Assembly (NCBI RefSeq): GCF_002958735.1
Contig: NZ_PPGH01000018.1
Coordinates: 186,001-250,000, forward strand
DNA length: 64,000 nt
Direction: 5' to 3'
DNA from: Chromatium okenii
GTDB lineage: Bacteria; Pseudomonadota; Gammaproteobacteria; Chromatiales; Chromatiaceae
The position numbers and the translations under genes are program-made. A model generated the notes under the pieces. It had not been told where the DNA came from, did not search any database, and was given only the letters and a program-made list of their open reading frames with translations. This document shows, one piece after another, positions 7,101-58,125 of this stretch; within the stretch, counting starts at the first letter, position 1, and every line of letters starts with the position of its first letter.

Positions 7101-7631
7101 GATTTCGCCGGGTGTGGTAAACGATGCAGCAGTGAGTTGGCTTTCAAACAGAATGGAAAATACGAAAATGCCCGCGAGAATGGCGGTGGTTGTGGTCGCT
7201 TGCACCCAGCCATTCGCGGCAGCCAGTGATTCTTTTCCGGTCAATTCTTTGATGTAGCCATATTTCGCTGGCGAATAGATTGCTGCCTGCGCACCCAATA
7301 AAAAAGTCATCGCAAAGGCCGGCCAAAACCAACCAAGATAATAAAATAGCGTGATCGCCAGCGTGAGTGCAACCGCGATCCATGCACTAATACGCATCAC
7401 TTTATTTTTCGGAAAGCGATCAGCGAGAAATCCCGACGGTGTAAATAATAAAACGAATGGTAGCAGAATGAGCGCATTAACAATGGCAGTTAATAAGATT
7501 TGCGCGTCACCGTCATAGGTTTTGAACAGCGTATTTTGAATGATAATTTTATGCCCCAAATCCACAAAAGCATTCAAAAAAATCATGACGATATAAAATA
7601 AAAATCCGGTAATGCGGAGTAATTTGCCCAT
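4185..7631 (-). CDS. aas: Lysophospholipid transporter - acyltransferase - acyl-ACP synthetase fusion (Aas type)
   Basis: 1148 residues from the ATG at 7631, which has a GAGG about 6 bases upstream; a TTG 15 bases earlier lacks one and is rejected. Residues 1 to about 410 are an MFS (LplT-like) domain with about 12 hydrophobic segments. Residues about 430-610 are a PlsC acyltransferase: NHVSWID gives the HX4D catalytic motif and FPEGTLSKNG the EGT motif. Residues about 640-1140 are an AMP-forming acyl-ACP ligase (ILFSSGSEGTPKGIELTHRN, YGVTET, WYKTGDKG). In E. coli LplT and Aas are separate proteins that flip lysophospholipid inward and re-acylate it. The three-domain fusion is known in Proteobacteria. 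It probably recycles phosphatidylethanolamine lysolipids at the inner membrane. Confidence 0.9.
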   Translation of the reverse strand: MGKLLRITGFLFYIVMIFLNAFVDLGHKIIIQNTLFKTYDGDAQILLTAIVNALILLPFVLLFTPSGFLADRFPKNKVMRISAWIAVALTLAITLFYYLGWFWPAFAMTFLLGAQAAIYSPAKYGYIKELTGKESLAAANGWVQATTTTAILAGIFVFSILFESQLTAASFTTPGEIMHLIAPLGWLLVLCSLIEVTLAYQLPQLATGNLLAFDWAAYRSGRYLTDNFSAAWNSPVIWRSIVGLALFWSISQVLLAVFPAFAKDSLGEMNTVVIQGILACAGLGIIIGSMIAGRLSRQRIETALIPVGASGIALALFIMPTLPSASAHALNFLALGVLAGLLLVPLNALIQLNAPAVELGRILAANNFVQNSAMLIFLALTVAAAYFNLGSLSLLLALAFIAGIGAIYSLAQLPQPLLQFVIARLMAARYQLTIIGAQHLPTTGGVLLLGNHVSWIDWAMLQMASPRPVRFVMERAIYQRWYLRWLLDAVGVVPISRDGSRQAIRTVAAWLDAGEVVCVFPEGTLSKNGQLGEFRRGFELAAQAASAGVIVPLYHYGLWSSRFSAANPTLRRNRRSMARREVIVAFGPPLPLHTRAAVVKQRVFDLSVIAWQIHVTRLPTLPLAWLTTAKRRLGAVTIIDSNGMVLTNRRLITAVMLFAEWIRQRVPETRIGILLPTSSAGAIANLAGLLAGKTVINLNYSASAEALRASVAQSGIAHVITAERFINKLAQRGIDVRVILADVALHPMEDIRAGISRGRAVTMLARVSVLPTWALLRRFNLPSTTEATAAILFSSGSEGTPKGIELTHRNLVANVRQVADVLNVEHNDRILANLPLFHAFGLTVTTFLPLLEGIPMICHPDPTDVVGAAKAIARHRASVLFGTATFLRLYVRHRRVYPPMLESLRLVVAGAERLGPAVREAFALKFHQPIYEGYGVTETTPVASVNVPDELDTENLKIQTTARVGSVGMPLPGTSFRIVDPATLEPLPFDTDGLILIGGVQVMRGYLDAPEKTAAAILERDGIRWYKTGDKGHLDADGFLTIVDRYSRFAKLGGEMVSLSAIEEQVRRVLEQPDLELIAVNMPDERKGERILLLVAGEIDAEELRRRLLAAGVPALQIPAFIKTVAAIPKLGSGKTDFGAARMLAASL

Positions 7632-12932: not shown

Positions 12933-14906
12933 TCAATGGTTGTTAAACTGATTACTCAACCAATAAAAGTGATAGGGCGGGATGACAATCCGTTGATTAA
13001 AAAGTGCTGGCGATTCACCAGAAATCAAATCTTGAATTTGCCCGTAACGAAATATCCCTCGCGCATTTGCGCTAATTTCCTCTAAATCCAGATATTGTGG
13101 TGTTGCATCAAAGTTTGCTACTACTAACACTGAACTTGACAATGCTGTTGGATGACTACGCAGAAAGACAAATAAGTGTGGGTTAATAAGATCAATTAAT
13201 TCACGGTTATTAAAATCTGCAAATGCTGGCGTATTTTTACGCACCATAATCATACGTTTAAGACCATAAAATAGTCGTTGTTCAACGCTACCACTTTCAT
13301 GCCGTTGCGCAAGGCGTTGCCAATCAAGATGGGGACGATGAATCCAGCGCATATCACCAGCTTTGTTTTCATCACTTAAAAAAGAATTATCGTTTAAGGT
13401 TCCTACCTCATCTCCATACCAAATTAGCGGAATACCGCCGAAAGAAAGAATCATGCCGTGCAGCATGAGAATAAGATCAATCGTTATCTTTATTGCAATT
13501 TCATCATTTGCCTCTAACGCTGTTTCCAATCCGGCTAATGATGCTAAAGCGCCTGCGATTCGCGCATCTCCAGTTTTATGATTAAAGCCAAAAGTTCGTC
13601 CTCGTGCCGGTGAATCCTTAAAGTTTCCGGTAAACCAATCAATTAAAAAATGCCGGTGGGCATAGGGATCATAATCACAGGCACGAATATCTGCATCATC
13701 AAAACCCAGTCCAATATCATCGTGACAACGAATGTAATTTAACCAAGTTGCGCGATCTAATTTAGTGGGTAAATTTTTAATCCCACGATTAAGTAATTTT
13801 GCGTTTTTTGTGGCTACTGCATCCCACAGTAACGCCATAAAAGTGGCGTTATACGCAATCTCACATTCTTTAGCGATAATTGCATCCTCACCAAAATACT
13901 TGACGATTTCAGAAGGAGCAACAATTGCTTCTGCAATAAATAATGTGCCGGGCGCTACCACCTGACAACAATCTTTCATTAACTGTAGAATTAAATGTGC
14001 TTCGCGTTCATTTTGTGAGCGCGTTCCTATTTTTTTCCATAAAAAAGCGACGGCATCAAGACGTAAAATATCTGCTCCCTGATTTGCCCAAAATAAAATA
14101 ATGTCTAGCATTTCAATAAAAACACTAGGATTAGAATAGTTTAAATCCCATTGGTAATGATTAAATACGGTCATTACCCATTGTGACATTTTAGGATTCC
14201 AAGTGAAATTACCCGGCGCTGTTTCTGGAAAAACTTCTAATAGCGTTTCTTCAAACATATCGGGAATATCCCGATTAGGAAAGGTATAGTAAAAATTTTG
14301 ATACGTTTTATTGCCTGCCTGCGCTTTTTGTGCCCATTCATGTTCGTTTGATGTGTGATTCACTACTACATCAAGCGTTAATAACATGCCACGCGCACGC
14401 ATTGCTTCTGATAAAAGACGAATGTCTTCTACATTACCAACACGCGGATCGAGATTGCGAAAATCACTCACTGCATAACCGCCATCGCTGGCGTTATCAG
14501 GACAACGCAGAATTGGCATGATATGGATCATGTTAATTCCGAGTTCTTGTAAATATGGCAGCCGTTGCAATAGGTTTTTAAGATCGCCAGCAAAACCATC
14601 TAAATAGAATGCCATCCCAACCCATTCTTGACTCATAAACCAGTTATAATTTTCCTCACGCTCCATATCAATTACCCGCAATACTTCAGGGCGTGCAATA
14701 TATGCGCGAGCTAGCCGTTCCGTTAATTGCGTGAGTTGCGCTTTGAAATCCGGGCGCTGACCATACAGTCGGGAAAAAAGTGAATGAATTGCGTAAAAAT
14801 TTGCCCCCAAACGTGTATAAAAATGGCGCAAATCTGCGCAAACCACTTGATGGCTAAGATCATCAAGAATGTCGTTTAATAAAGCGTGAGAAACTTGTTC
14901 ATACAT
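12933..14906 (-). CDS. ams: Amylosucrase (GH13)
   Basis: 657 residues from the ATG at 14906; a TTG 15 bases upstream is possible but less likely. The enzyme splits sucrose and adds glucose to an alpha-1,4-glucan, releasing fructose. A GH13 barrel is clear: DVVNHTSNEHEWA (region I), ADILRLDAVAFLWK with the nucleophile Asp near residue 286, FIAEAIVAP with the acid/base Glu near 328, and IRCHDDIGLGF with the third Asp near 393. The N-terminal helical part (1-90) and NYNWFMSQEWVGMAFYLD are typical of amylosucrase rather than of other GH13 enzymes. It is the last gene of the sps-spp-fructokinase-ams order, so it would degrade sucrose to glucan and fructose. Confidence 0.92.
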   Translation of the reverse strand: MYEQVSHALLNDILDDLSHQVVCADLRHFYTRLGANFYAIHSLFSRLYGQRPDFKAQLTQLTERLARAYIARPEVLRVIDMEREENYNWFMSQEWVGMAFYLDGFAGDLKNLLQRLPYLQELGINMIHIMPILRCPDNASDGGYAVSDFRNLDPRVGNVEDIRLLSEAMRARGMLLTLDVVVNHTSNEHEWAQKAQAGNKTYQNFYYTFPNRDIPDMFEETLLEVFPETAPGNFTWNPKMSQWVMTVFNHYQWDLNYSNPSVFIEMLDIILFWANQGADILRLDAVAFLWKKIGTRSQNEREAHLILQLMKDCCQVVAPGTLFIAEAIVAPSEIVKYFGEDAIIAKECEIAYNATFMALLWDAVATKNAKLLNRGIKNLPTKLDRATWLNYIRCHDDIGLGFDDADIRACDYDPYAHRHFLIDWFTGNFKDSPARGRTFGFNHKTGDARIAGALASLAGLETALEANDEIAIKITIDLILMLHGMILSFGGIPLIWYGDEVGTLNDNSFLSDENKAGDMRWIHRPHLDWQRLAQRHESGSVEQRLFYGLKRMIMVRKNTPAFADFNNRELIDLINPHLFVFLRSHPTALSSSVLVVANFDATPQYLDLEEISANARGIFRYGQIQDLISGESPALFNQRIVIPPYHFYWLSNQFNNH

Positions 14907-35829: not shown

Positions 35830-35960
35830 CATACAAAATCTATACAAAAGCGTACAAATCTAGCTTTGATATATTCACACCGTCAACGCAAAAGCCATGA
35901 TGAAACGATGGTCTAACTTTGCTCTGGTGTGCATTTAAGGTCAGGCTGTAACGTGTCCAG
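35830..35960 (-). ncRNA. Expected omega (guide) RNA region at the tnpB 3' end
   Basis: Known TnpB guide RNAs start inside or near the end of tnpB and run through the element end into flanking DNA. The region from the last tnpB codons to the ATCTA repeats is where it should lie. This is inferred from position; no fold was computed and the 5' end is not known. Confidence 0.35.
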
Positions 35961-37036
35961 ACCGTATTGATTTAGATTGAGCGCGGCGTTCAAATCTCTA
36001 TCCGCGCTAAATCCACACTCACAGGTAAAAGTTCGATCTGCAAGTGATAAATTTGTTTTAACTTTTCCACAACATGAACATGTTTTACTGCTGGGAAAAA
36101 ATCGATTTGCGACAACAACGACACAATTTCTCAATTGAGCCTTGTATTCAATCATCTGCCGTAAATAACCAACACCAGCATCGCTGATAGCGCGACTGAG
36201 TTTTCGATTTTTTAACATGCCTTTAACGTTTAAATCTTCAATCGTAATCACGTCAAAGTTTTTAGTCAGATAATCCGACAATTCATGCAACAAGGCTTGT
36301 CGTTGTCGTGCAATACGAAAATGAAGTTTTACAATTGCCAGCTTGGCTTTCGCTCGACGGTTTGACCACTGCACTTTCTTGGTTAAATTGCGTTGAAGTT
36401 TTACCAACTTTTTCAAACTGGCTTTCAACTTTTGATTGGCAGAAAACACTTTACCTATGCTTAAAACGGCAAGTGATTTGATACCAAAATCAACACCAAC
36501 TGAGTGTTGGCGATCAACATCGTGGGATTGTAGTCTTCTGTTTCAACTAAAATTGAAGCAAAATACTTTCCAGCGCGTTTAGAAATCGTGACTTGTTTTG
36601 CGATGCCTTGAAAACGTAACGGTTGACGCAGTTCAATTTTAGTTTTGAGTTTTTCAATCCGCAATTCACGACCGATAACATCAAATTTAGCCGATTCACG
36701 CAACGCAAAACTATCACGCAAATCTTTCTTTTTGAAGCGTGGAAAACCTGCTTTTTGTTTGGCTTTGACGCGCCTGAAAAAGTGCTTAAAAGCGTTATCT
36801 AAATCATCAATTGCATTGCGGGTGACACGACTGGAAACTTCGTTGTACCAGTCAAATTCTTTACGAAGTACGTTAATGTAATGCCGATATGCTTCGTTTT
36901 TTGACCATTTATTTTCTGGCTTTGAAAAATGCGCGAGCAATTGATTATAGCAATGGCGTTTGGAGCCACAGGCTTGATCCAAATACACCATCTGTTCAGG
37001 TGTGGGGCGCAATTCAATTTTGTGTGCCAGTAACAT
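35913..37036 (-). CDS. tnpB: TnpB RNA-guided nuclease of an IS607-type element, one frameshift
   Basis: About 375 residues when one base near 36521 is restored. The N-terminal part (MLLAHKIELRPTPEQ, YNQLLAHF, SRVTRNAIDDLDNAFKHFF) is the OrfB HTH/REC-like region. The RuvC centre is present: VGVDFGIKSLAVL (first Asp), VITIEDLNVKGM (Glu), SADRDLNAALNL (last Asp). A zinc ribbon CSCCGKVK...CECG lies between. TnpB proteins cut DNA guided by an RNA made from the 3' end of the element, and favour retention of the element. All catalytic residues are kept, so the protein could be active if the frameshift is a sequencing error. Confidence 0.93.
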
Positions 37037-37060
37037 GGTTTCTAATCTCAATCAACACAT

Positions 37061-48234: not shown

Positions 48235-48918
48235 ATGACTGAAACTAAATCTAGCCCGTTAAGCAACATTGACAGCACCAAAGCAATTATTGGCGGCGTG
48301 ATTGTGCTGGCAATTATGGGCGTGTCACATGCCATCTCGACCGGAATGCTGGTGGGAGCGCCAACACCGATGACCGCCGAACAGCTTGCGACTAATTTGG
48401 CGCGAGTTGGTGCAGTAACAGTAAATCAACCGGTGGCTCCACCGGTGGCTGTTGCACCAGTAGTTGAAACTGCGCCTGCGGCAGAACCTGCTGCACCAGC
48501 GGTTGAAACTGCGCCTGCGGCAGAAGCTGCTGCACCAGCGGTTGAAACTGCGCCTGCGGCAAAACCTGCTGCACCAGCGGTTGAAACTGCGCCTGCGGCA
48601 GAAGCTGCTGCGCCAGCGGCTGAAACTGCGCCTGCGGCAGAAGCTGCTGCGCCAGCGGTTGAAACTGCACCTGCGGCAGAAGCTGTTGCGCCAGCGGTTG
48701 AAGCTGCACCTGTGGCAGAATCTGCTGCGCCAGCGACTGAAGCTGCGCCTGCGGCAGAAGTTGCTGCGCCAGCGGTTGAAGCTGCGCCTGCGGCTGAAAC
48801 TGCACCTGCGGTAGAACCTGCTGCACCAGTTGTCACTGCACCAACGCCGCACCCACAACCAGCTTGGTTGCTGCACATGGCTCCGCTCAGTTCGCCAGCT
48901 CCGCATCACCCGAAATAA
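48235..48918 (+). CDS. Membrane-anchored Ala/Pro/Glu repeat protein
   Basis: 227 residues: a short cytoplasmic start, one membrane segment (AIIGGVIVLAIMGVSHAI), a short folded-looking stretch (TPMTAEQLATNLARVGAVTV), then about nine copies of a 13-residue unit VETAPAAEAAAPA and a His/Pro-rich end. Such Ala-Pro-Glu stretches form stiff extended spacers, as in TonB-like or wall-spanning proteins. The N-terminal 70 residues are the only informative part, and I do not recognise them. The function could be to reach across the periplasm. Good ribosome site AAAGGA. Confidence 0.75.
   Translation: MTETKSSPLSNIDSTKAIIGGVIVLAIMGVSHAISTGMLVGAPTPMTAEQLATNLARVGAVTVNQPVAPPVAVAPVVETAPAAEPAAPAVETAPAAEAAAPAVETAPAAKPAAPAVETAPAAEAAAPAAETAPAAEAAAPAVETAPAAEAVAPAVEAAPVAESAAPATEAAPAAEVAAPAVEAAPAAETAPAVEPAAPVVTAPTPHPQPAWLLHMAPLSSPAPHHPK
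48463..48813 (+). repeat. 39-bp minisatellite in the Ala/Pro repeat gene
   Basis: Nine tandem units of about 39 bases (13 codons), each built around GTTGAAACTGCGCCTGCGGCAG-like sequence with few changes. The period keeps the frame, so copy number can vary without breaking the protein. The last units are the most diverged. Confidence 0.85.
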
Positions 48919-51369: not shown

Positions 51370-52759
<1,390 letters not shown>

Positions 52760-53162: not shown

Positions 53163-55425
53163 TCAACACTGACTTTGATATAACTTAAATAAAAAAGTAA
53201 CCCGTTCGCTGTCTTCATTGCTGCCTTGATAGCAATAAGCAGTATCTACTGCTTGATCTAATTTAATATGCGCTTTTGTTAAAATAAGCGGCATCGTGCG
53301 TGGATCGTATAAATCTGCTAATGACGCATTGGGAAACTGGGCGCGAGCATTCAACACCGCTTGAGCAGCAGTTTCAATAATGGCAGTTTGTTTGGGAGTT
53401 GGTGTTGGCCAAGGAAAGTTGTTGTAAACAATTTTTGCAGAATAACTATAGCTACCACCTAATCTTCCACAAATAGTACGCATCCAAGCATTGTGCATAA
53501 TACTGGTCATCACGCCAAAATGATAAACTGTAGCATCTGGAATAATTTGCAACTTATCACCGACAATATGCGTATAAGGCAAAAACCCAACAGGTACATA
53601 TTGACGATGTTCAGAAGAAACACGCGGTAAAGCTAAATAATGCCCTTGAGTTGGTTGACGTATTTCTGTAAAAAGCATTGGCTTATTAGCCCATTCTTTT
53701 GTTGCAGCTTTACTACTTGCTAGTCGCACAGATTTAACAGCTTCAATACGCTTCAACACTTCTGGCATTTTTTCAGTTCATTAGGTAAACAATCAACAAG
53801 CCATAAACAGTAACGTGGAATGTTGTTGATAAATTCATCACCCATTGAAAATGGTTGAATATACTGTTCTGCTTGTGGTTCGCTCTTGACTAAATCATCT
53901 TTTTCTTGTTGGTTAAGTAATAAATAACCGCCGTCTGTCGCTTGACTGCCTCTTGTCATTATAGGTGCCGCTAAACACAGCGGTTTTTTTCGTGCATTTA
54001 CTATCACATTAGGCGCATCGAATAAATAAGGACTGATATTGGTTGCTGATAATGCTTGGGGTTTTCCTTTAATATCTGCGTAAATAAACAGCGTTTTTGG
54101 TGGCACAGAAAATAGAGCAAAACCAATAATCACTACATGCACAGCAGCATTGTTTTTAGCCTCATTTGACCAGCTAAATGTGCGATGTGCAAAGTTAATA
54201 CACACTCCGGCATCTAATAACGGCTGCCATAAAATAGCGATCTGTTCACCTTGCACGATGCTATTAGTACTCACGAACGCTGTTTGCGTTGCCGGATGGG
54301 TTTTCATATATGCAGTTGCGGTGTAATGCCATGCGCACACGAAATCAAGACTTTTGTATAATTTAACGGCTGGCAAATGTGGTGTATGTGTAAACACTTT
54401 TGCTAAATCTGCATTTTGTTGTAAATTGCGAAAATTTTTGCCAATAAAAGGCGGATTGCCATAATAAAACTGGCATGAGGACACACGTTGCGCCAATCTA
54501 TTTGTAAGGCATTCGCGTGAACGATAGTTGCCGATGTTTTCAACGGAATGCGCACAAAATAAACGCCAAACATGGCGCTCACTTGTTGATTCATTTGATG
54601 ATCAGTCAACCATAACGCAACTTGAGCAATTTGTGCTGGGAATTCCTCCAATTCAATGCCATAACATTGATTGACATCTAACTTTATCAACGTGTCGATT
54701 TCTAATAATTGCGCCTTTTTATGCACCTTTTCGAGAATTGCTAACTCTAATTGCCGCAATTCTCGATAAGCAATCACTAGAAAATTACCGCAGCCACAGG
54801 CGGGATCAAAAAAAGTCAATTGCGCCAAGCGATGATGAAAAGCGTTGAGCTTGGCTTTATTGTTGCCCAATTTATGAAATTCTGTCCATAACGCATCTAA
54901 AAACAGCGGCTTAATTAACTTTAAGATATTCTCCTCACTGGTGTAATGCGCTCCCAGATTGCGTCGTTCTGTTTCATCATAATGCTTTGAAAAATACTGC
55001 CAAAGATCGCCGGACTAATTCGACTCCAATCCAATGCGCAAACACTCAATAACGTCTCGCGCATCGTGCGATCAAAACTCGCAGGTGGTAACAATTCAGC
55101 AAATAATTTGCCGTTGATATATGGAAATGCGGCAAGTTCTTCGTCTAAATTGGTTAATCGCTGCGCCAACGGTGTATTGAGCACATGAAATAACTGACTG
55201 ATTTGTGCCGCTAAATCACTGCCGTCGCTGCGCGTTTTGTTTTCAAAAACTTCTGAAATTGGCGCTTTGCAAAAATACCGGTATCTTCTGCAAATAAACA
55301 AAACAATAGCCGTACTAAATACACTTCCAGCGGATGCCCTAATAACCAATCGCTTTTAATTGATCATGCAGCTTTCCCATACATTCAACAGCTTTAATGT
55401 TGATTAAGTCTTGTGGCTGCATCAT
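53163..55425 (-). CDS. MmeI-like methyltransferase-specificity protein lacking the nuclease domain (copy 1), frameshifted
   Basis: The ATG codons at 55425/55422 begin MMQPQDLINIKAVECMGKLHDQLKAIGY, which matches copy 2 from its residue 180 or so onward. The nuclease domain is therefore absent. Present are the helical connector, the methyltransferase domain (FDPACGCGNFLVIAYREL, then NPPFIG), and the target-recognition and C-terminal parts (HNAWMRTICGRLGGSYSYS, YCYQGSNEDSERV). Frame changes near 55347, 55262, 54976, 54461 and 53765 each fit one missing base. Bases about 54436-55380 are almost the same as 56691-57636 in copy 2, while the following target-recognition part differs much more. It could be a second methyltransferase with other specificity, or a decaying copy. 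Confidence 0.75.
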
Positions 55426-55434
55426 CGGCGTCTC

Positions 55435-58125
55435 TTAACGCCTACTTTCATAGAGCTTGAATAAAAAACTAACCCGTTCGCTGTCTTCATTGCTGCCTTG
55501 ATAGCAATAAGCAGTATCTACTGCTTTATCGAGTTTGGTATGCGCTGCGCGTAAAATTTTTGGCATTAAATCTGGATCATAAAGCGTCGCTAACGTATTA
55601 TTAGCATCCAGCGCAACAGATTGATCTCGTGCGTTAAGTACCGCTTTGGCAGCTTGTTTAATTATTGATTGATGTGCTGCGCTGACAGTTATCCAAGGAA
55701 ATAACTGATAGACATTTGGGGAATAGCTGTAACTGCCTCCTAAACGACCAGCAACGGTGCGCATCCACGCATTATGCAACGCACTGGTTAACACCAAATT
55801 CGTATAAACCAACATCAGGAATCATTAAAACTTTTTCATGCGGAATAATGTTTGGTTGTAAAAATAAAATGGGAATGTATTGACGCCGAGATGAAACGCG
55901 AGGAATTGCTAAAAACTTTTTTTTAGGACTTGATTTGCGTAAAAGGTAAGGTTGACTCGCCATTTCTCTAACGCTTTCAGTTTTACTAGCTAATCTCGCT
56001 TTTTTTATCCTTCAATCCGCTTTAATTTCAGGATACTGTCCAATAATTTCAGTTGCGCAGGTGTAGCTTCCGCAAACCACAAACAATAGCGTTCTACGCC
56101 GTTATCAATTCATAACCACCAATAAATGGTTTAATAAACGCGTTAAGTCAGGATATTTTGCCAAGAGTTCGCTTTTTGTGCGGCATCTAAAATTAAATGT
56201 CCGCCGTCTGTGGGTTGACTTCCTTTAGTCATCGCCGGCATTCCTTGCGGTGGTTGTGAACGCGATGGCAATAACACATTAGGCGCATCTAACAAATAAG
56301 GATTGATATGACTCGCAGGGAGTGCTTGCGGTTTTCCTTTCACATCTGCATAAATAAACAGCGTTTTCACTTGTGCCGCAAATAACGCAAAACCAATAAT
56401 GACGACTTGCACTGCTGCATTACTTTTTGCTTCATTTGTCCAGCTAAACGTGCGATGCGCAAAGTGAATTTGCACTCCTTGCGCTAACATCCAACTCCAT
56501 AAAATGCCAACTTGTTCACCTTGCGTAATGCTATTGGTTGCCACAAATGCGCAGGCGGTTTGTCGTTGATTGAGCAGATATTGCGTTGCTTTCACAAACC
56601 ACGCGCCCACAAAATCAACTTTGCCAAACTTTTTATCTTTCGGAAAGACTAACTCTACATCGGCTTGTTGCGCCGGAGATCGCCATTGATGACCAATAAA
56701 AGGCGGATTGCCGATAATAAAGCTGGCATGAGGACACACGTTGCGCCAATCCATTTGTAAGGCATTCGCGTGAACGATAGTTGCCGATGTTTTCAACGGA
56801 ATGCGCACAAAATAAACGCCAAACTTGGCGCTCACTTGTTGATTCATTTGATGGTCAGTCAACCATAACGCAACCTGAGCGATTTGTGCTGGGAATTCCT
56901 CCAATTCAATGCCATAACATTGATTGACATCTAACTTTATCAACGTGTCAATTTCTAATAACTGCGCCTTTTTATGCACCTTTTCGAGAATTGCTAACTC
57001 TAATTTCCGCAATTCCCGATAAGCAATCACTAGAAAATTACCGCAGCCGCAGGCGGGATCAAAAAAAGTCAATTGCGCCAAGCGATGATGAAAAGCGTTG
57101 AGCTTGGCTTTATTGTTGCCCAATTTATGAAATTCTGTCCATAACGCATCTAAAAACAGCGGCTTAATTAACTTTAAGATATTCTCCTCACTGGTGTAAT
57201 GCGCTCCCAGATTGCGTCGTTCTGTTTCACTCATAATGCTTTGAAAAATACTGCCAAAGATCGCCGGACTAATTCGACTCCAATCCAACGCGCAGACGCT
57301 CAATAACGTCTCGCGCATCGTGCGATCAAAACTCGCAGGTGGTAACAGTTCAGCAAATAATTTGCCGTTGATATACGGAAATGCGGCAAGTTCTTCGTCT
57401 AAATTGGTTAATCGCTGCGCCAACGGTGTATTGAGCACATAAAATAACTGACTGATTTGTGCCGCTAAATCGCTACCGTCGCTGCGCGTTTTGTTTTCGA
57501 TAAACTCCTGAAATTGGCGCTTCTCAAAAATACCGGTATCTTCTGCAAATAAACAAAACAATAGCCGCACTAAATACACTTCCAGCGGATGCCCTAAATA
57601 ACCAATCGCTTTTAATTGATCATGCAGCTTTCCCATCCGTTCAGCGGCTTTCATGTTAATCGGGTCTTGCGGTTGAATCACCTGCGTCGTATAACCCGCA
57701 ATAAAACCAAAGGCGCTGATATGCGTGACGAAATCAGCTAAAGGAAAAGTCAGCGTATGATTCGTTTCTAAATCGGTGAGTTGCAGCGTTGCAAAATCCG
57801 ATACCAACACATAACGCGGTAAATCATGTTCTTTAATTCCGGCGCAATACTCCATTGCTTGCTGATAAGCCAGCGCCAAGTTTTTGCCGCGACTTTTCAT
57901 TTCTACGATTAACACACCCGGCCAGAATAAATCAATAAATCCTGCTTTACCGCCGTATTTTTTCACAGCATATTCAAACGTTGCCAGCCGCTTGTTGGTA
58001 ATTCCAAACACTTCAAAAAAATCAATTAAAAATGGCTTGGCTTCGCTGTTTTCACTCGCGGCATCGTGCCAACGTTGCGCAAAAGCCACCGCCCGCGTTT
58101 TTATTTCATTCCAAGAAAGCGGCAT
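55435..58125 (-). CDS. MmeI-like type IIG/IIL restriction-modification enzyme (copy 2), frameshifted at the 3' end
   Basis: About 897 residues when restored; MmeI has a similar length. The ATG at 58125 has AGGAG upstream. Residues 1-160 form the nuclease domain with D65-x9-E75-x-K77 (in FIDLFWPGVLIVEMKSRGK), exactly the MmeI D-x9-ExK pattern. Then follow a helical connector, an N6-adenine methyltransferase with FDPACGCGNFL near residue 350 and GNPPFIG near 475, and a target-recognition part with HNAWMRTVAGRLGGSYSYS. One chain cuts and methylates DNA, and only one strand of the site is modified in the known family. Four or more one-base losses break the frame between 56150 and 55800. The recognition sequence cannot be read from here. 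Confidence 0.85.

Follow-up and report, generated by a model that had tools for sequence, protein, structure and literature searches.

A tandem pair of MmeI-type genes

The window analysed here is a stretch of 64,000 nucleotides (G000:C22:186001-250000) from the LaCa assembly of Chromatium okenii, a purple sulfur bacterium; the assembly comprises 45 contigs and 3,784,749 bases. The minus strand of the window carries two MmeI-type genes in head-to-tail order, copy 2 (58125-55435) followed by copy 1 (55425-53163). An intact orthologue of each was found in strain DSM 169 (G002). The features are as follows.

55435..58125, minus strand: copy 2, complete MmeI-type (Type IIL) gene with nuclease, spacer, methyltransferase, target recognition (TRD) and C-terminal domains (domain search, MmeI alignment, intact orthologue)
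57676..58125, minus strand: copy 2 nuclease domain, about residues 1-150, with D65, E75 and K77 (Pfam MmeI_N, MmeI alignment)
56693..57688, minus strand: homogenised core tract of copy 2, spacer and methyltransferase up to NPPF (95.8% identity; concerted sites)
55547..56690, minus strand: divergent part of copy 2, with post-NPPF loop, second methyltransferase half and TRD
55444..55546, minus strand: 3′ identical tract of copy 2 (103 nt, 90.3% to 53274-53172)
55426..55434, minus strand: 9-nt spacer GAGACGCCG from the copy 2 stop to the copy 1 ATG (identical in DSM 169)
53163..55425, minus strand: copy 1, MmeI-type gene without nuclease domain, with spacer, methyltransferase, TRD and C-terminal domains (domain search, intact orthologue)
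54441..55432, minus strand: homogenised core tract of copy 1 (alignment of copies)
53275..54436, minus strand: divergent part of copy 1, with post-NPPF loop, second methyltransferase half and TRD (contact residues identical to a full-length gene, G025_75)
53172..53274, minus strand: 3′ identical tract of copy 1 (alignment of copies)
L038:7115-9820: intact copy 2 orthologue in DSM 169
L038:4838-7105: intact copy 1 orthologue in DSM 169

Copy 2 scores 149 bits for the Pfam family MmeI_N, and over its first 649 residues it gives an alignment of 917 bits with MmeI (5HR4). Its D65-x9-E75-x-K77 corresponds to D70...E80-x-K82 of MmeI. The five domains and these three residues confirm the original prediction, made by reading the window, that copy 2 has the whole R-M-S layout. 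Alignment of the intact DSM 169 orthologue showed that copy 1 starts at about MmeI residue 155 and matches this solved relative end to end (residues 155-900); thus, precisely the nuclease domain (1-155 in MmeI) is missing. This domain is gone exactly at the MmeI 155/156 boundary, and methyltransferase motifs I and IV are intact. In the crystal structure of MmeI, the enzyme's own nuclease domain is not visible (PMC4833311). The copy 1 ATG (55425-55423) comes 9 nt after the copy 2 stop (55437-55435), and junction and start are identical in DSM 169. The expectation that copy 1 begins right after the nuclease part was borne out. Both copies carry the helical spacer, a gamma-class methyltransferase (DPACGCGNF, NPPF), an MmeI-type TRD and the C-terminal domain, in pieces in LaCa and end to end in DSM 169. 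In LaCa, copy 1 is flanked by copy 2 and acnA and, on its other side, by a small ORF and purB; in DSM 169 the pair also adjoins acnA, and a different gene follows copy 1.

As deposited, both LaCa frames are interrupted by single-base gaps, near 55344, 55247, 54977, 54462 and about 53770 in copy 1 and near about 56165, 56108, 56010 and 55815 in copy 2. The two-gene picture of the original prediction holds for the pair itself, but these breaks had been missed. The neighbouring purB is likewise frame-broken. LaCa was assembled with canu from PacBio RS II P6-C4 reads of an enrichment at about 25x coverage, and 708 of its 3,792 annotated genes are pseudogenes (PMC6374484). Both frames of the pair are open in DSM 169 (about 901 aa for copy 2 and 755 aa for copy 1). 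Because of these open frames and the PacBio-only origin of an assembly with so many pseudogenes, the LaCa breaks are probably base-calling errors. A comparison within the assembly points to sequencing error as well, since contigs C39 and C41, which are alike over several kilobases, differ there by gaps of one base, and these interrupt gatA on one of the two contigs. Decay of the pair in LaCa, whose own frames are broken, is a residual possibility. An assembly duplicate, which the original prediction had named as a possible source of copy 1, is excluded because the independent genome of DSM 169 holds the same pair with both frames open.

Some further features of the window were noticed. At 51370-52640 and elsewhere, purB and other housekeeping genes are split over several frames, which fits a PacBio-only assembly. 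An ORF with a long Ala/Pro/Glu-rich repeat (AAPAVETAPAAE...) at 48235-48918 is open on several frames, and two adjacent frames at 35913-37051 resemble, by reading only, a broken TnpB/OrfB-type transposon protein.

Identity between the copies and recombination of the core

Base-by-base alignment showed that 55432-54441 and 57688-56693 are 95.8% identical over 996 columns, in agreement with the near-identical core of about 0.95 kb that had been noted by eye. The codons that differ within it are synonymous in 17 cases and not in six. In 50-nt windows, identity drops at the NPPF motif, from 0.98 to 0.53, then lies at 0.64-0.80 over the second methyltransferase half and is mostly 0.42-0.70 over the TRD. 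The recognition part as a whole is mostly 44-80% identical between the copies, and one stretch of 270 columns beyond the core reaches 78%. The last 103 nt are then 90.3% identical, so the gene ends become nearly identical again, as predicted. An even level of identity along both genes, which would have spoken against the proposed gene conversion, is rejected by the alignment and the window profile.

The boundary between core and divergent part is explained by the structure of MmeI, in which residues 487-489, just past NPPF (481-484), contact the target on its minor-groove side, and the TRD proper spans 621-825 (PMC4833311). The homogenised tract ends where specificity begins. The strong divergence predicted right after NPPF was found, but recognition had been placed slightly too early: the TRD proper begins about 140 codons after the post-NPPF loop, and only that loop (MmeI 487-489) touches the target near NPPF. 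At the other end of the genes, GCGTTAAGAGACGC at 55428-55441, in which GGCGT...ACGCC can pair, spans the copy 2 stop. It occurs exactly twice in DSM 169, behind copy 1 at L038:4831-4844 and behind copy 2 at 7108-7121, which means that the repeated end tract extends past the stop codon.

Copies 1 and 2 from LaCa and DSM 169 were then compared in a four-way alignment. Within the core, nine sites are concerted (grouped by genome) and six separate the paralogues, whereas outside the core one site groups by genome and 351 separate the paralogues. This difference supports an exchange of the core by gene conversion after the split of LaCa and DSM 169, as read from concerted sites that are few in number and of which five cluster at 56896-56911. 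In the core tree, both copies of both strains form one clade (support 99/96). In the tree of the post-NPPF part and TRD, copy 1 groups with two full-length genes, G006_2 from the same genus and G025_75 from another genus of the family (97/94). The swapped groupings were rejected with p = 3e-66 for the core and, at a moderate level, with p = 0.015 for the TRD side (AU test). Core and TRD trees therefore conflict significantly, the pattern that marks TRD movement between methyltransferase genes. Tree conflict and clustered concerted sites together back the gene conversion originally proposed. An exchange inside the copy 2 TRD occurred as well, because copy 2 of LaCa and DSM 169 is about 97% alike up to the TRD and 61% alike in part of it.

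Between the two strains, dN/dS of copy 1 is 0.19 overall, 0.064 in the core and 0.42 after NPPF, where constraint is weaker. The first 640 codons of copy 2 give 0.056, and across the 150 codons of its nuclease domain the amino-acid sequence is unchanged at a dS of 0.13. These codon comparisons show that both genes are under purifying selection. It is quite improbable that copy 1 is a non-functional, decaying duplicate, as might be suspected from its missing domain, its frame breaks in LaCa and the higher ratio in its recognition part. Its frame is open over 755 aa in DSM 169, its overall ratio is low, and breaks are equally many in copy 2 and in housekeeping genes of the LaCa assembly. Moreover, several DSM 169 genes are similar, with the same boundary.

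Predicted targets and nuclease-less relatives

Targets were called by applying published covariation rules (PMC4833311) to the contact residues, with x as the last base. The residues of copy 1 suggest CGGCAx, with C from K723/E738, G from R642/Q645, G from R751/D773, C from S810/K774 and then the methylated A. For DSM 169 copy 2 the rules suggest [A/G]GCCAx. The call for LaCa copy 2 is tentatively about GGGCAx (G from T723/R737, then G, probably G from R751/E773, C and A), its contact residues sitting partly in an error-rich, frame-broken stretch. At its contact residues, copy 1 is identical to the full-length G025_75, matches the full-length G006_2 except at 806/808, and differs from copy 2. 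The two specificities originally proposed are thus in line with the predicted target contacts, and a second protein that only methylates is likewise predicted from the missing nuclease and the intact motifs I and IV.

Gene order and the 9-nt spacer suggest co-expression, as would suit a copy 1 that serves the asymmetric site of copy 2 by methylating its opposite strand. Such a second-strand role is most improbable and was rejected, since the predicted targets are not complementary (CGGCAx against [A/G]GCCAx in DSM 169 or about GGGCAx in LaCa). In addition, modification of a single strand is the form of host protection described for MmeI-family enzymes.

Counting copy 1, four MmeI-type genes of DSM 169 have no nuclease domain. 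Their junctions all fall within codons 147-155, with homology to full-length genes setting in again at nt 438, 456, 457 and 465. One of them has retained its first 58 nt and is missing about 400 nt in frame, and another sits behind the 3′-end remnant of a further MmeI gene. Apart from L084, which sits at the edge of its contig, the 80 genome loci found by similarity hold nuclease-less genes only in C. okenii. In a further sample of 369 genomes of the class, near-complete matches outside LaCa are all about 897 aa or more; shorter, partial matches also occur, several of them at contig ends. Nuclease-less relatives elsewhere are DnmA and one viral contig. A second viral candidate (L146) was rejected, its nuclease part being present in another frame.

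The viral contig (IMGVR_UViG_3300028591_000418, L145:3956-8101; also L201) encodes a 1381-aa MmeI-like methyltransferase without nuclease domain. Three TRD-plus-C-terminal modules follow one another in this frame, 70-80% alike and with different contact residues in each, and none of the other frames in a scan of 201 with TRDs has more than one. From this layout, the protein looks like a multispecific adenine methyltransferase.

LaCa holds a second tandem MmeI-type pair, with both genes full-length, on contigs C39 (L005, 7204-13966) and C41 (L006, 3311-10073). The contigs match each other through copy A and into the start of copy B; across the copy B core and TRD and the start of the next gene they are 50-85% alike, and beyond it similarity returns to about 95-100%. 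The copy B core of C41 is similar to copy A. These contigs are possibly alternative haplotypes, or else reflect two enrichment strains or an assembly effect. A search of LaCa with acnA or purB DNA found no second haplotype of the window locus. Genes that have a C-terminal part in common and a Bro-N, pRha or KilA-N start lie behind MmeI-type copies (L005:10057-11076, L005:14239-15054, L006:10363-11190, L008:4096-4776, L038:16886-17707 and L039:8433-9290) and form a second mosaic family linked to these loci. Remnants of the 3′ ends of MmeI-type genes lie upstream of intact copies (L005:6971-7095; L038 about 13972-14133), as if the arrays had formerly been longer.

Copy 1 might instead be mainly a recombination reserve, whose TRD is swapped through the core and 3′ tract into the nuclease-bearing gene and so changes restriction specificity over generations. 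We consider this unlikely. The conserved tracts that flank the divergent part in both copies would allow it, as would the repetition of 3′ tract and linker on either side of copy 1 in DSM 169. It also fits that the two contigs of the other pair differ only in the core and TRD of one gene and in the gene next to it, and that the full-length LaCa_38 and the nuclease-less DSM_c3 have about 100% of the TRD in common. However, no swap between copy 1 and copy 2 was seen when LaCa was compared with DSM 169, and each TRD is about 94-99% conserved in place between the strains, apart from part of the copy 2 TRD-C. Selection on copy 1 suggests use as a protein, and the contig difference may have the other origins named above.

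A recombining pair and its relation to known systems

The reading that we prefer, with a probability of about 0.7, is a recombining Type IIL pair in which copy 2 would cut and methylate, copy 1 would only methylate another target, and exchange of the core went on after the strains split. For activity, targets and benefit we infer the following. Copy 2 would be a complete enzyme, cutting and methylating at its own target, and copy 1 a spacer-methyltransferase-TRD-C protein that would methylate adenine at CGGCAx without cutting. Homologous exchange between the genes keeps the spacer and first methyltransferase half alike, and the part from the post-NPPF loop through the TRD stays different or is swapped with other family members. 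As recombination keeps the core alike and the target-reading parts differ, one cell probably marks two DNA sequences and cuts at only one of them. The benefit would most likely be modification of the chromosome at a second site where related bacteria still restrict, or else safe trials of new TRDs.

When a single recognition domain serves cutting and marking, the host is at risk of being cut whenever that domain changes; a nuclease-less twin with a shared, recombining core would be a natural, safe way of trying new targets. Extended to the tandem MmeI-type arrays of C. okenii, this would be a specificity-shuffling system: nuclease-less genes would provide safe methylation of a new target and serve as TRD donors, core-mediated recombination moving a TRD onto the nuclease-bearing frame once the chromosome is already protected. 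We hold this wider view to be doubtful. The conserved pair, the repeated precise nuclease loss in one species and the two sister-locus contigs make the idea of a twin for trying targets directly testable.

Type IIL enzymes cleave about 20/18 nt from their site and modify a single strand with m6A. Of the two genes, only copy 2 has the N-terminal PD-(D/E)XK nuclease in the same polypeptide that defines this type. Compared with MmeI (PDB 5HR4; PMC4833311), copy 2 is complete, with five domains and the catalytic residues, and copy 1 has the last four domains. The differences from MmeI are the lack of a nuclease domain in copy 1 and the tandem arrangement of two genes whose core is homogenised and whose TRDs differ. 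Copy 1 shares its MmeI homology and the absence of a nuclease motif with DnmA/YeeA of Bacillus subtilis, a reported orphan methyltransferase (PMC9973331). However, DnmA sits with yeeB and yeeC, whereas copy 1 stands behind a complete paralogue with which it has a converted core in common; yeeB/yeeC-type neighbours are absent from the LaCa locus, where copy 2/acnA and the small ORF/purB are found instead. TRD ('domain') movement between methyltransferase genes has been described, for example, in Helicobacter pylori (PMC3983042), and the trees obtained here likewise indicate recognition parts moving between genes with conserved flanks. Unlike in that account, the genes here are of Type IIL, and repeated loss of the nuclease domain and a tandem arrangement are added. 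Type IIL enzymes, orphan relatives such as DnmA and TRD movement are thus already known; what is new is a tandem pair that combines a precisely removed nuclease domain with a converted core.
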